A DNA stretch of 53,754 nucleotides, taken from contig CAIQWD010000054.1 in the NCBI GenBank assembly GCA_903875445.1, positions 1 to 53,754 on the forward strand. The letters are read 5' to 3'. Every line of letters begins with the position of its first letter. Position 1 is the stretch's first letter. The stretch is from an uncultured delta proteobacterium (GTDB taxonomy: Bacteria; Desulfobacterota; Desulfobulbia; Desulfobulbales; Desulfocapsaceae). Below are positions 8,380 through 23,266 of this stretch, piece after piece. The notes beneath the pieces were generated by a model. That model was not told the DNA's origin, did no database searches, and saw only the letters and a program-made list of their open reading frames with translations. The translations under genes were made by a program, and so were the position numbers.

Positions 8380-9736
8380 TGATGACAGTGGTTTAGTGGA
8401 GATGCTTACCGATCAATTAACGGGTGGCGGTCATAGGGTGGTGTCTGCAGGTAATCTGCAGGAGGGGCTTTTGCTCCTGCGGCAGGAACCAATTGATATA
8501 GTTTTGCTCGATGTCCAGTTGCCGGACGGCAATGGCTTGGAATATATCCCGATGATAACGGGTGCAGCGACAAAACCGGAAGTGATCATCATTACCGGCC
8601 AGGGCGAGGCGGATGGCGCGGAAAAGGCAGTGGTCGGCGGCGCCTGGAGTTATATTGAAAAGCCCCATGTTATCCGTGAGTTGTCCTTGCAGCTTGCCCG
8701 TGTCCTGCAGTATCGCCGGGAAAAACAGAAGGTGACAACCGTCCTGGTATCGCTCAAGCGGGACAAGATCATCGGCAGCAGTCCCGCCATACGACGCTGT
8801 CTCGACCTGGTGGCCCGGGCCTCGGCAACCGATGTCAGCGTCCTCGTGAGCGGGCCGACCGGTACCGGTAAGGAGCTGTTTGCCAGGGCCATTCATGAGA
8901 ACAGCGCCAGGGCCGATAAAAACTTCGTCGTTGTCGATTGCGCGGCCCTACCGGAAACACTCATTGAAAGCACTCTTTTTGGGCATGTCAAAGGGGCTTT
9001 TACCAATGCCGAATCTCCCCGGGACGGCCTGGTGAAGCATGCCCATCAGGGAACACTTTTTCTCGATGAGGTGGGAGAGCTGCCGATCAACATCCAGAAA
9101 ACCTTTCTCCGCCTTCTGCAGGAGCATGAATATCGGCCGGTAGGGTCGTCAACGCAACAATACAGCGACTTCAGAGTAGTGGCTGCAACCAATAGAAATC
9201 TGTACGAATGTGTGCAAAAGGGTACTTTCCGAGAGGATCTGCTGTTCCGGTTGCAGGCCTTTACCATTGAACTGCCGGAATTGAAGAGTCGCCGGCAGGA
9301 TATTCGGGAGCTGGCACTGCATTTTACTGCCAAACTCTGTCAACGATACGGCATGGAGGTTAAAGGGGTTGCCGGGGATTTCCTCGATGTCTTGGACACC
9401 TACGAATGGCCGGGTAATGTCCGTGAACTCTACCAGACGATGGAGCATGTATTCACTAATCCGCTGCTCGGACCGACCTGTTTCGCCATTCACCTGCCGG
9501 AAAAATTCCGGGTGCAGCAGGCCCGTGCCGGGATCAAGGCGAAAATATCGGCGGGTATCGTTTCCCCCTGTGCCTTTCCGACCTGGCAGGATCATAAAAA
9601 TATCTGTGAGATAGAATACCTGCGCAGATTGAAATGTACCGCCGGCGGTAATGTTACCGAGGCGGCGCGGCTCTCCGGGATATCCAGAACGCGCCTCTAT
9701 CAGCTTTTTGAAAAACACGGTGTAGAGTTTTCCTGA
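8357..9736 (+). CDS. Sigma-54-dependent response regulator (NtrC family)
   Basis: Transcription activator of 459 aa: receiver about 1-120 with D52 and K102, AAA+ domain about 138-375, and Fis-type HTH at about 425-459 (GGNVTEAARLSGISRTRLYQ). Walker A is GPTGTGKE at 166-173 and Walker B is LFLDEVG at 234-240. The sigma-54 contact loop is GAFTNA (213-218) rather than the canonical GAFTGA. It is the cognate partner of the overlapping hybrid kinase: phosphorelay from H418 via D709 or directly to D52 is expected. Target promoters cannot be read from this window. The gene converges on the SGNH-like gene with only 23 nt between. Confidence 0.94.
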   Translation: MARILIIDDDSGLVEMLTDQLTGGGHRVVSAGNLQEGLLLLRQEPIDIVLLDVQLPDGNGLEYIPMITGAATKPEVIIITGQGEADGAEKAVVGGAWSYIEKPHVIRELSLQLARVLQYRREKQKVTTVLVSLKRDKIIGSSPAIRRCLDLVARASATDVSVLVSGPTGTGKELFARAIHENSARADKNFVVVDCAALPETLIESTLFGHVKGAFTNAESPRDGLVKHAHQGTLFLDEVGELPINIQKTFLRLLQEHEYRPVGSSTQQYSDFRVVAATNRNLYECVQKGTFREDLLFRLQAFTIELPELKSRRQDIRELALHFTAKLCQRYGMEVKGVAGDFLDVLDTYEWPGNVRELYQTMEHVFTNPLLGPTCFAIHLPEKFRVQQARAGIKAKISAGIVSPCAFPTWQDHKNICEIEYLRRLKCTAGGNVTEAARLSGISRTRLYQLFEKHGVEFS

Positions 9737-10983: not shown

Positions 10984-12408
10984 TGGTTCGCTCGATGCTC
11001 AAAATACAGAGGGCAAAGATGCAGCCGACTGCGATTCCCCACCGGATATTCGGCGACCATTTCACTGGGAAGATCGAAGGCGCAGAAGGTTTCATCTCGT
11101 GACCTTTCTCGGTGAAAAGAAACAGCTCGTTGGTATTGGGCAGATAAAAAGCAATAAGAGTGCCTGCGAGCAGTATGAGATAACCGGGAAAATCAATTTC
11201 CGTCACCGGGGAGATGCCATTTATCCCCACCATTCCGGCTAGTACCTTGAAGGCTGAAGTCACATTCTGCGCACGGAAAAAACACCAGGCAACCATCACC
11301 GCAAGAAAGGTAAGAGTTCTATTAATAGAATTTGTGAGCACCGTCGGTTGCCTGTACCTGTTTCGCATCGCATATTGCCAGCCATGCTGGATGCAAAGAT
11401 ACATACCATGCAGCCCGCCCCAGATAACAAATGTCCAATTGGCTCCATGCCATAAACCGCCCAGCAACATGGTCAAGATGAGATTGCGATGCGACTCAAT
11501 TGTCCCCGCCGGTTGCCACCGAGGGGTATGTAAAGATAATTACGAAGAAATCTGGAGAGGGAGATATGCCACCTCTGCCAAAAATCGCTGACGCTCGTGG
11601 CCTTATAAGGAGAATTGAAGTTAATGGGTATTCGCAAGCCCATTAATCGCGAGACCCCTATGGCCATATCGGAATAGCCGGAGAAATCAAAATAGAGTTG
11701 CAGGGTATAGGCGAGCATTCCTAGCCATGCCTGAAGGAATTGCGGGCTGCCACCGGCAAAAACCGGAGTAATTGCCGAGGCCAGATTGTCGGCAATCAGT
11801 AATTTTTTTCCCAGGCCAAAGACGAAGAGAGAAATACCGATGGCAAAATTATTGGACTTTACCTGGTAATTGTTTGAATCGGAAAACTGCGGTAGCATCT
11901 CCTGGTGATGGAGGATGGGGCCGGCAACAATATAGGGGAAGTAGGAGGCAAATAACAGATAGTGGGTGAAATTCAATTCCTTGATTTTCCCATGAGAGGC
12001 ATCAACTAATATGGAGATCTGGGTAAAGGTGAAAAAGGAAATCCCTACCGGCAGGATAATGTTGAGAAGAGGCATATGGCCCGAAGTGACATCGTTAAGA
12101 GATACAATAAAAAAGTTAACATATTTGAAGAAGCCGAGAAGGAGGAGGTTGAAAGCGATTGCGGCGGTCAACCACCACCTGCCGCTTGTTGGGGTTGCTG
12201 AGATTATCCGCTTGCAGGCAGAGTAATTAACAACAATCGATGTCAAGAGAATGGGGATAAATCGGTAATCCCACGAACCATAAAAGAAGAGGGATGCCAA
12301 AATGAGCCAAACTGCCGCCCATTGCCTGCTTTTTCGAGCAAAGAAATAAAAACCGAAGAGAGTAACAGGGAGAAAAAAAACAATAAATGAATAGGAATTG
12401 AACACCAT
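10958..12408 (-). pseudogene. MBOAT O-acyltransferase (AlgI/PatA-like), frameshifted
   Basis: Multi-pass membrane acyltransferase that moves acyl groups across the membrane for polysaccharide O-acetylation. The N-terminal part (12408 to 11473, 311 aa) runs to YIPLGGNRRG and then leaves frame. The rest (about 11500 to 10958) continues with RNLILTMLLGGLWHGANW, holding the invariant catalytic histidine. Adding one base to the C4 run at 11504-11507 (G4 in the coding strand) joins the parts into 483 aa, the normal family length, reading GGNRRGT-IESHRNLIL. As printed, the first product lacks the catalytic histidine and is inactive. The start at 12408 gives a typical first helix (MVFNSYSFIVFFLPV). 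The cause may be a real mutation, phase variation or a sequencing error. Confidence 0.87.
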
Positions 12409-12841
12409 AGTTACACCTTAACCGGTTTAATGGCAACTTGTCCTCAGGCAGCCATCCGTAAATGGATTGGGCTGGGCATGAATGTACTGCAATAGACTTT
12501 TTGACACACCTCGAAAACAATCACAAGAAGAAGACAGCGTGTTTCTTCATCCATCTATTCTTTTCCTTCCTTGTGCTCCTCGGCAACCATTATAGCGGTT
12601 TTTATAAGAGTCATAGTAACTGTTAACAAAAGCGTGTGCTGTTAACATTTGTTGACAGTTTTCGGGCCTAGAGGATTTCCGGCAATAATTAAGATCTTTC
12701 CATAACGTGCTGAAAACACATCAGATGCGAGTATCTCGCAGAGATTCATGGGCAAAATGGCACAGATGGTGCTTTTGCAGCGGGGGAAGGTCACAGTGTT
12801 CGCAATGGTTGACAATCGGATTTCAGTACTACGTGGAAGGT
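12409..12841. other. Intergenic region between divergent operons
   Basis: About 430 nt without a convincing gene, between the MBOAT gene (minus) and the chemotaxis-type operon (plus). It is AT-rich in the middle. It holds an imperfect inverted repeat at 12618-12660 and TTGACA boxes at 12652 and 12809 without good -10 partners. A 97-codon minus-strand open frame here (12227-12520) overlaps the MBOAT start and has no family features. Confidence 0.5.
12618..12660. promoter_or_regulatory. 13-bp imperfect inverted repeat, putative operator
   Basis: AACTGTTAACAAA at 12618-12630 pairs with TTTGTTGACAGTT at 12648-12660 with one mismatch. The centre contains a third TGTTAACA element (12640-12647). 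Three half-site-like GTTAAC/GTTGAC elements suggest a binding site for a dimeric regulator, located about 180 nt upstream of the chemotaxis-type operon. The regulator is unknown. Confidence 0.4.
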
Positions 12842-19464: not shown

Positions 19465-20784
19465 ATGGTCCATAAGTATCCAAAGGATTTGGTGCAAGAA
19501 CTTACCGTGCTCTGGCGGCTGGGGCCGCCGGGGATGGAGGTCTCCGGTTCGGGATACAGGAGACTGCCGGATGCCGAGGTGCTGGAGGAACTGGTATCGA
19601 CGGCGTATCAGGTCAGCCAGATGCAAGAAGAGGCTCGCGGTCTGCGTTTCCGGCTCATGCTTTGCGAGCCGGAGGATGTGGACGAAGATGGTTTCGGCGA
19701 GGCTCTGGGGCTCTTTACCCTCAATTTTACCGTGCCGCGGCCCTATAACGAGTACGAACTCCTGAAACTCGGCCCTTCCATAGACTACAACAATTCCCTG
19801 ATCGGCATGCGCTACCGCAAGGGTGAAGGCTTGCAGATCTGGGGCTTGATCCATTCCGGGTCGCGGTGGATGCATGTCATTCATGGCGGCAGCAAACAGG
19901 CAACCCCGCTGCCGCCGGCCCTTGGGGTTAACATCCTCGGCTCCGGTCGGCTGATTGTCTGTCGCGGAGTGGAAATACTTGCCCAGTTGAGCGGCGGCAA
20001 AATTATTTCCCCGTCGACCAACGTCTTTCGTTCGCAATGGGTCGCCAGGCGATTCGGACAGGTGCGCAGTGAACTGGCGGCAATGCATGAAGAAAATCCG
20101 CGCCGCGATCCGGGGGAGTGGGCGCGCATCGACCCCTCTTTTATCCCGGCCCTGTATCTTGAGTTTTTCAAGCATGTTATCAGCACGGTGCGGCGTTCCG
20201 GGCATGGCGGGACCATCATCTCCTTTCCAGCAGGCATGGATGATATGGTCACCCATGACAATCCTTATATTGATCTTAAATATCGCTTTGATGAAGGCAC
20301 CCCTCGTAACCAGCTGCGAAAGATTGTGCTGCGCATCATGGAGGTTCTAGCAAGAAACTGCGGTCGGCTCTATGGCCCTGAATATCTAGCGGGGTGGAAA
20401 GATTACGTGTCGCTGCAGACGGAAGAACTGGCGCAACTGGATGAGCGGGTGTTTAAGTATGCCCGGTTTATTGCCAGGCTTACCGGCGTCGACGGTGCGG
20501 TCGTGACCACCGAAGGCCTGGAGATTATCGGCTTTGGCGGCATCATCCAGGGGACCATGGAAATGGGTGGAATCGTCGCAAGAGCCCTTGACCCGGAAGG
20601 GGTTCGCCGGCAGGTCGAGCGGGTGGAAAGCGTCGGCACTCGGCATCGATCCCTGTACTATCTCTGCCATAAATTGCATGATGTCCTGGGAATAATCGTT
20701 TCCCAGGATGCTAAGGCCAGCGTCGTCACCTGGAATACCGAGAAGGTGACTTTCTGGGATGTCATCCCCATCGATTTCGCCTAA
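19465..20784 (+). CDS. Predicted DAC (diadenylate cyclase-like) protein, DACNV-type sensor
   Basis: A 439-aa protein. The C-terminal part has the two signature motifs of the DisA/CdaA diadenylate-cyclase fold: DGA at 343-345 (TGVDGAVVTTEGLEIIGFG) and GTRHR with R393-H394-R395, followed by LHDVLGIIVSQDAKASVV, which parallels the usual IVVSEETG strand. The larger N-terminal part (to about residue 300) contains GHGGTIISFP and no other familiar domain; it resembles the sensor regions named DACNV. The inferred function is c-di-AMP or related nucleotide synthesis, or a sensing derivative. No membrane helices are evident. I start at ATG 19465 (GGCAGGAA upstream) rather than 19384. Confident of the DAC motifs, less of activity. 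Confidence 0.75.
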   Translation: MVHKYPKDLVQELTVLWRLGPPGMEVSGSGYRRLPDAEVLEELVSTAYQVSQMQEEARGLRFRLMLCEPEDVDEDGFGEALGLFTLNFTVPRPYNEYELLKLGPSIDYNNSLIGMRYRKGEGLQIWGLIHSGSRWMHVIHGGSKQATPLPPALGVNILGSGRLIVCRGVEILAQLSGGKIISPSTNVFRSQWVARRFGQVRSELAAMHEENPRRDPGEWARIDPSFIPALYLEFFKHVISTVRRSGHGGTIISFPAGMDDMVTHDNPYIDLKYRFDEGTPRNQLRKIVLRIMEVLARNCGRLYGPEYLAGWKDYVSLQTEELAQLDERVFKYARFIARLTGVDGAVVTTEGLEIIGFGGIIQGTMEMGGIVARALDPEGVRRQVERVESVGTRHRSLYYLCHKLHDVLGIIVSQDAKASVVTWNTEKVTFWDVIPIDFA

Positions 20785-22182: not shown

Positions 22183-23266
22183 ATGTGGGAAGATCTTGAA
22201 GTTGCATTGGAGAAGGTGTCCGAGGAGAAATTACAGAAGAAGCCGTCACCCGACAAGCTCGGATTCGGAGTTCATTTTACCGACCATATGTTCCTTATGC
22301 AATGGAGTCGGGAGCACGGCTGGCATGATGCAAAAATCTGTGCAAAAGAGGCGTTTCGCATTGATCCGGCGGCAATGGTCTTCCACTACGGACAGGCGAT
22401 TTTTGAAGGCCTCAAGGCGTATAGGGGCAAGGATGACCAGTTGTTTCTCTTTCGCCCCAAGGATAATTTCGAGAGGATGAACCATTCCGCCGTACGCATG
22501 TGCATGCCGCGGATTCCGGTGGAGAAAATAGTCAATGTCCTCAAGTCGCTCATCTATCTTGAGAGGGAGTGGGTACCTCGCGGCGAGGGTGCAACTCTCT
22601 ATATTCGTCCGACAATGATTGCCGTCGAGCCGACGCTTGGAGTGAAACCGTCGTCCCTCTACTCCTTTTATATCATTCTATCCCCGGTAGGCGCTTATTA
22701 CGCCGAAGGGTGCAATCCCACCAGGATCTATGTCAGTGACCAGTATGTCAGGGCGGTAAAGGGCGGGGTCGGCAACGTAAAAACCGCCGGTAATTATGCA
22801 GCATCCCTGTATATGTCGGAAATTGCAAAAAAAAGAAGGTTGTACGCAGGTTTTGTGGCTCGATGCCTGTGAACATAAATACGTGGAGGAGGTGGGAACC
22901 AGCAACATCTTTTTCAGAATAGATAACCAGCTGCTCACCCCGCCGTTGGAAGGCTCAATTTTGGGTGGCCTTACCAGGGATTCAGTTATTAAACTGGTAT
23001 CCAGTTGGGGCCTGGATGTGGTTGAGCGCAGGATCTCGATTGATGAGGTGCTTGCGGCAAATAGAGAGGGCAGGTTGCAGGAGGTCTTCGGCACTGGAAC
23101 CGCGGCAGTTATCTCCCCCGTCGGAGAACTGTTTTATAAAGGCACCAGCTACAAGATTAATGATGGCCGGACCGGGGAAATATCGGCCAGGCTCTATTCG
23201 GAACTGCAAGCCATTCAGAACGGCTCTCAAGATGACCCGTTTAAATGGGTGGTGCGCGTCGGATGA
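22183..23266 (+). pseudogene. ilvE: Branched-chain amino acid aminotransferase, frameshifted
   Basis: PLP enzyme that makes or degrades Leu, Ile and Val with 2-oxoglutarate/glutamate. The first part (to the stop at 22872) covers GFGVHFTDHMFLMQW, FHYGQAIFEGLKAYRG, YIRPTM and the PLP-lysine region GNVKTAGNYAAS. The second frame continues from KKEGCTQVLWLDACEHKYVEEVGTSN to the C-terminus at 23266. Removing one A from the A8 run at 22827-22834 joins them as EIAKKEGCTQV and gives 360 aa, the normal length. Start ATG 22183 has GAGGAG and GGGAG upstream. The break may be a sequencing error, a true mutation or rescue by slippage on A8. Type II BCAT is the closest subclass by motif. Confidence 0.9.

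Follow-up and report, generated by a model that had tools for sequence, protein, structure and literature searches.

We propose that the gene at 19465..20784 of the window (the whole stretch of 53,754 nucleotides analyzed here) encodes a soluble diadenylate cyclase that is regulated by a DACNV domain in a sulfate-reducer-type bacterium. We give this reading a probability of roughly 0.8, with the enzymatic activity predicted from sequence and a structural model. The domain arrangement is already named in databases. Diadenylate cyclases act as dimers whose DAC domains meet face to face, and by analogy with this family the window protein would share its substrate, product and dimer mechanism. Specifically, a cytoplasmic protein would bind ATP in its DAC domain (residues 226-433), at a site lined by DGA, RH(R) and VSQD; two DAC subunits paired face to face would join two ATP molecules to give c-di-AMP. 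The DACNV domain, together with the next ~95 residues, may respond to a cue in the cytoplasm by raising or lowering cyclase activity. The gene and its main regions are as follows.

19465..20784, + strand: DACNV-DAC protein, a 439-aa open reading frame with an ATG start
19558..19854, + strand: DACNV probable sensor domain, residues 32-130 (Pfam PF21751)
19855..20139, + strand: conserved region between DACNV and DAC, residues 131-225 (AlphaFold model)
20140..20763, + strand: putative DAC catalytic domain, residues 226-433, two inserts included (AlphaFold secondary structure, Foldseek, and hhalign to a CdaA profile)

The open reading frame 19465-20784 is a real gene under purifying selection. Its dN/dS against five orthologues is 0.03-0.11, at synonymous distances of 0.8-1.9 that are partly saturated, and an AGGA was seen by eye 7 bases 5′ of the ATG. 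The highest 19-residue Kyte-Doolittle mean of the protein is 1.32, which agrees with the preliminary description in finding no membrane helix.

With respect to catalytic residues, the translation carries both hallmark motifs of the DAC family (PF02457), DGA and GxRHR, exactly where they had been placed from the letters alone. A third motif stands where CdaA has VSEE.

20491..20499, + strand: DGA motif, residues 343-345 (translation, conservation in 80 sequences)
20635..20649, + strand: GTRHR motif, residues 391-395 (translation, conservation in 80 sequences)
20698..20709, + strand: VSQD motif, residues 412-415, at the place of CdaA VSEE (hhalign, conservation in 80 sequences)

When the letters of the protein itself were shuffled 20,000 times, DGA arose 2,131 times and its combination with G[TS]RHR a single time. 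Conservation was counted in a family set of 93 rows that reduce to 80 distinct sequences, built in part from a pattern-based scan of genome contigs from which the best 80 of 243 relatives were kept; 58 of these 80 loci were used and 22 left out. Among the sequences left out were L001-L003 (not DACNV), L005 and L010 (short or broken frames), L030 (unrelated and without DGA), L031 (like a DACND-type protein), and the second gene copies L006, L009, L032, L046 and L047. Residues D343, G344, G391, H394 and S413 are invariant in all 80 distinct sequences, with R393 found in 79, Q414 and D415 in 78 each, A345 in 77 and R395 in 67; the figures for 391-395 and 55-56 are inflated, since the two scan patterns covered the GTRHR and EE stretches. 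DGA and SQD lay outside these patterns, and the counts for D343, S413 and D415 are untouched by the bias. Two departures from CdaA were observed: the window protein has VDGA rather than HDGA, and SQDA where the SEE(T) metal-site motif stands. According to published work, DisA-type proteins, which use Mg2+, are without the His of CdaA (PMC12974146).

In terms of fold, the AlphaFold model of the window protein has a mean pLDDT of 85.6 and a pTM of 0.78. A Foldseek comparison with the PDB placed diadenylate cyclases at ranks 1-36 of the 50 matches listed, at probabilities of 0.63-1.00, and the other 14 were unrelated chains at 0.18 or below. By model and ranks the protein belongs to the DAC fold, although the best E is only 0.0036 and none of the 50 matches listed reaches 0.001. 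The earlier view of a DAC-like protein with both catalytic motifs is supported. By sequence, the PDB gave no match at E ≤ 10 and NCBIfam none at E ≤ 1. The model and the profile alignment also place the following features within the domain.

20203..20229, + strand: first DAC strand, HGGTIISFP, residues 247-255 (aligns to CdaA RIGALIVIE without columns 278-318)
20296..20418, + strand: helical insert in the DAC domain, residues 278-318 (AlphaFold helices 279-303 and 311-316)
20560..20619, + strand: second insert, before RHR and with VARALDPEG, residues 366-385 (hhalign to CdaA)

G248 of the first strand is present in all 80 distinct family sequences, and the second insert has a conserved ALDxEG whose D376 is found in 67 of the 80. 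Profile comparison was made with a CdaA profile of 12 sequences, namely the CdaA of the same genome, the fusion L002 and the 10 of 29 fetched CdaA loci that passed a motif and length filter. The 93-row family profile matched it at 83.0% (P = 9e-6), with DGA, GTRHR and VSQD/VSEE in register. Without columns 278-318, P was 2.1e-6 and the match reached upstream to 247-255, and without both inserts the match rose to 93.5% (P = 2.2e-7), these columns having been chosen for omission after the fact, with the model as guide. The 59-member alignment alone (the window protein and 58 of the best 80 of 243 relatives), before divergent members were added, gave 20.6% (P = 0.0011), and in forced global mode 0.1% (P = 0.37). 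Residues ~226-433 thus read as a DAC domain split by two inserts, on the evidence of profile and model. The 300-residue sensor region of the preliminary description was drawn too long, since residues ~226-340 appear, in the AlphaFold model and by hhalign, to be part of the cyclase domain.

The Pfam DAC model, which had been put forward as a check, gave a divided answer. With 12.7 bits, where the cut-off is 27, the window protein is not placed in the family by its score, and when the whole genome was searched for DAC at E ≤ 1 it did not appear among the matches; of ten sampled relatives of the same build, two exceeded the cut-off, at 27.4 and 30.0 bits. A DAC match at E ≤ 0.01 was found in 43 of the 59 alignment members, the window protein being among the 16 without one. 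A match at that level was likewise absent from L066, the only Desulfoprunum relative sampled. Read literally, the sub-threshold score is the outcome that the preliminary description had named as refuting its view; we do not take it as a refutation, because two of the ten relatives pass and the fold search lists DACs first. The poor score is probably due to the two inserts, and the split domain hints at why the DAC model under-calls proteins of this kind.

Against the cyclase reading stand the DAC score below the cut-off, the absence of the window protein from the genome-wide DAC matches and from the 43 members with a DAC match, the lack of any Foldseek E below 0.001, the weak hhalign result of the 59-member alignment alone, SQDA in place of SEE(T), the variable third residue of RHR, and the lack of a conserved neighbor gene pointing to a pathway. 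The low DAC score and the variable RHR residue would also suit a DAC-fold protein without activity, one binding ATP or c-di-AMP as a receptor or partner of other DACs. We regard such a protein as distinctly improbable, since the residues that matter in Leptospira CdaA are present and nearly invariant, and since the C-terminal half is under tighter constraint than residues 1-225 in all five comparisons (dN/dS of 0.017-0.087 versus 0.044-0.121). In Leptospira CdaA, activity was lost when either D172 (of DGA) or R203 (of GXRHRXA) was replaced, and conversion fell to 47.5% in the S222A variant (PMC12974146). From its SEET context and the CdaA alignment, S222 is probably the counterpart of S413.

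A different enzyme is also conceivable, in which the two inserts and SQD for SEE reshape the site of a DAC-fold protein that makes another cyclic or linear dinucleotide, or that feeds a private signal pool. Such an enzyme would fit the two inserts (278-318 and 366-385), of which the latter has a conserved ALDxEG (D376 in 67 of 80). It would also fit the presence of six DAC-type proteins in this one genome (window protein included), which exceed the apparent need of one c-di-AMP pool. Nonetheless, all three residues changed in Leptospira CdaA have counterparts in the window protein, and we consider another product unlikely.

The N-terminal region had been described as matching no sensor that could be named beyond a DACNV-like pattern, which is not supported: the window protein matches DACNV (PF21751) strongly, at 91.3 bits where the cut-off is 27, over positions 4-98 of the 98-position profile and residues 32-130, and is a member of this family. 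A genome-wide search placed the match at the same site, and all 59 alignment members match the model as well. The Pfam entry is called 'Probable sensor domain DACNV', and the domain is therefore already familiar to curators. Its role as a sensor is probable, judging from the architecture and the Pfam name. The following region, residues 131-225, is the one part of the chain left without a domain assignment; it is modeled with strands at 153-181 and helices at 191-209, and W135, G161, G168, W192 and H208 are invariant in all 59 aligned members. Modeled alone, residues 1-225 have a mean pLDDT of 78.8 and no PDB match below E 0.7 among the 50 Foldseek matches listed.

The helix and strand order in 37-181 of the AlphaFold model resembles, by eye, that of a DAC domain, as it would if the N-terminal region were a decayed second DAC domain and the chain a tandem DAC. 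In the same direction, the best hhalign stretch between the N and C halves pairs strand 153-159 with the VSQD strand, though not significantly. No DAC appears among the 50 Foldseek matches listed for residues 1-225, and hhalign gave P values of 0.15 and 0.074 for the N half against the C half and of 0.24 and 0.28 for the N half against CdaA. With secondary structure included, the native order scored 17.0, while among 24 circular permutations one reached 17.4, 22 fell at 16.7-16.9 and one at 15.4. A decayed DAC at the N-terminus is unsupported by Foldseek, hhalign and the permutation control, and we rejected it as highly improbable.

With regard to known systems, the DACNV-DAC proteins (PF21751 + PF02457) have the same two domains in the same order as the window protein, and no basic difference from them was found. 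A 2023 survey of DAC architectures by Galperin reportedly describes DACNV-type domains. Our literature search, which covered few subscription journals, found no paper on DACNV, nothing about tandem or degenerate DAC domains, and no experimental test of the DACNV-DAC arrangement. CdaA (DacA) shares with the window protein the DAC fold, DGA, GTRHR and the Ser of VSEE/VSQD. Unlike CdaA, the window protein has two inserts, no membrane helix and no His before DGA; the CdaA locus has the order cdaA-ybbR-glmM, and no YbbR or GlmM gene lies beside the window gene, which we do not count as a cdaA. DisA shares the DAC fold and the absent His before DGA, but the DAC domain of the window protein is C-terminal and no helix-hairpin-helix match was found at E ≤ 1, so that it is not a DisA either. 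The preliminary description was thus right to assign it to neither architecture. A DACND-DACNH-DAC protein of the same genome (C116) also has DACN-type modules ahead of its DAC domain, from other N-terminal families.

The window protein was found in 11 of 14 other genomes of the genus (one of the three without it is only 56% complete), in 2 of 21 of the same family and in 1 of 21 of the same order (protein search, E ≤ 1e-10). Across a phylum sample of 395 genomes, its own included, DACNV was matched at E ≤ 0.001 in 22, of which 20 also exceed the cut-off. The best 80 of the 243 scan relatives include Desulfobulbaceae, Geobacteraceae, Syntrophobacteraceae, Nitrospirae, Aphanocapsa (which we take to belong to the Cyanobacteria), Verrucomicrobia, Rubrobacteraceae and Polyangium. 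The nearest among them are Desulfobulbaceae, Desulfopila and Desulforhopalus, in keeping with the Gram-negative lineage suggested at the outset, and the window probably belongs to this group.

The gene looks like a stand-alone gene. It is flanked on one side by the gene of a CxxCxxCC protein and on the other by a convergently oriented gene for an AI-2E-type transporter, and eight open reading frames around it match other Pfam families. In a comparison of the window with 80 loci carrying flanks of up to 6 kb, no neighbor cluster comprising at least five loci keeps a constant position from lineage to lineage as a conserved operon partner would. The DAC cluster itself held 72 of the 80 loci and the window, the remainder having escaped a crude ORF picker. 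In the cluster of AI-2E transporters were 15 loci and the window; 14 of the 15 were Desulfobulbaceae kin or Proteobacteria and one was from Nitrospiraceae with the gene far off. A larger, mixed cluster (28 loci and the window, PAS-type signaling proteins included) was chained together. The neighbors differ between lineages, and no conserved one points to a pathway. At two loci, L081 (Geomonas) and L083 (Citrifermentans), the gene preceding DACNV-DAC is presumably nucleotide-sugar dehydrogenase-like. A presumed mutS stands further upstream, and the opposite flank carries genes that resemble dinB and lexA. This DNA-repair setting recalls DisA and may be due to chance. Elsewhere in the window, at 22183-23266 (+), two overlapping frames share what looks like one branched-chain aminotransferase gene, matching the Aminotran_4 profile at 2-134 and 128-222; the relative L064 has a single 360-aa frame, and the split is either a frameshift or an assembly error.

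A DAC protein is part of DS-2, a CBASS-linked defense system, and its predicted catalytic residues are needed for function (PMC13092281). As described there, the DS-2 DAC sits with a phospholipase and a CD-NTase, unlike the window gene. The window protein has no PADLOC match at E ≤ 0.01 in a library of 2023, which is older than the DS-2 report, and with its neighbors scanned by Pfam we rejected it as a known anti-phage defense protein. The gene after a DACNV paralogue of the genome (C13) matches the PADLOC candidate defense model PDC-S01 at 327 bits, and given this match and the age of the library, the wider family may conceivably have a defense role.

Five further DAC-type proteins are encoded in the genome, C101, C68, C116, C13 and C113 (the window protein being C54); a weak DAC match in C102 (72-aa frame, 13.4 bits) was left out of the count. 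C101 is the CdaA, adjoining what we take to be YbbR-like and GlmM-like genes, and C68, with GTRHH, is presumably a CdaA-YbbR-like fusion. C116 (L050:8127-9671) has a DAC match of 44.9 bits; its gene lies directly after an RNase II-like gene and, as called, overlaps it (L050:6152-9671). The DACNV proteins are C13, C113 and the window protein, with DGA/DGL and GTRH. Of these, C113 (L048:9427-10758) is a divergent DACNV-DAC with DGL and GTRHR, whose neighbors at 8477-9238 and 11032-12417 have no Pfam or PADLOC match at E ≤ 0.01, and C13 (L049:7189-10346) is the third DACNV-DAC, with GTRHI, its gene being immediately preceded by one for intracellular septation protein A (PF04279, 225 bits). The genome also contains two c-di-AMP riboswitches (RF00379, 90.2 and 87.2 bits against a cut-off of 38), whose positions and downstream genes are as follows.

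L136:5400-5544 and L135:3082-3219: RF00379 riboswitches, before a presumed KUP-like potassium transporter gene and a presumed lytic transglycosylase-like gene

In terms of c-di-AMP turnover, no PgpH-type 7TMR-HDED phosphodiesterase (PF07697) was found in this 95.3% complete assembly, and DHHA1 gave seven matches, five of them above the cut-off, one of these in a 335-aa frame. The five other DAC-type proteins and the two riboswitches make c-di-AMP signaling in this organism likely, and the window protein may have a share in it. We think it rather unlikely that the DACNV-DACs form a separate channel, in which the inserts of these soluble cyclases would lead to another nucleotide or to a private c-di-AMP pool, read by other receptors than those that answer to CdaA within the cell. 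Work on c-di-AMP has centered mainly on Gram-positive bacteria. The present genome provides a Gram-negative setting with riboswitches and several kinds of cyclase, three of the proteins being DACNV-DACs, and it offers the questions of why a cell would keep so many cyclases and what the soluble ones may sense.
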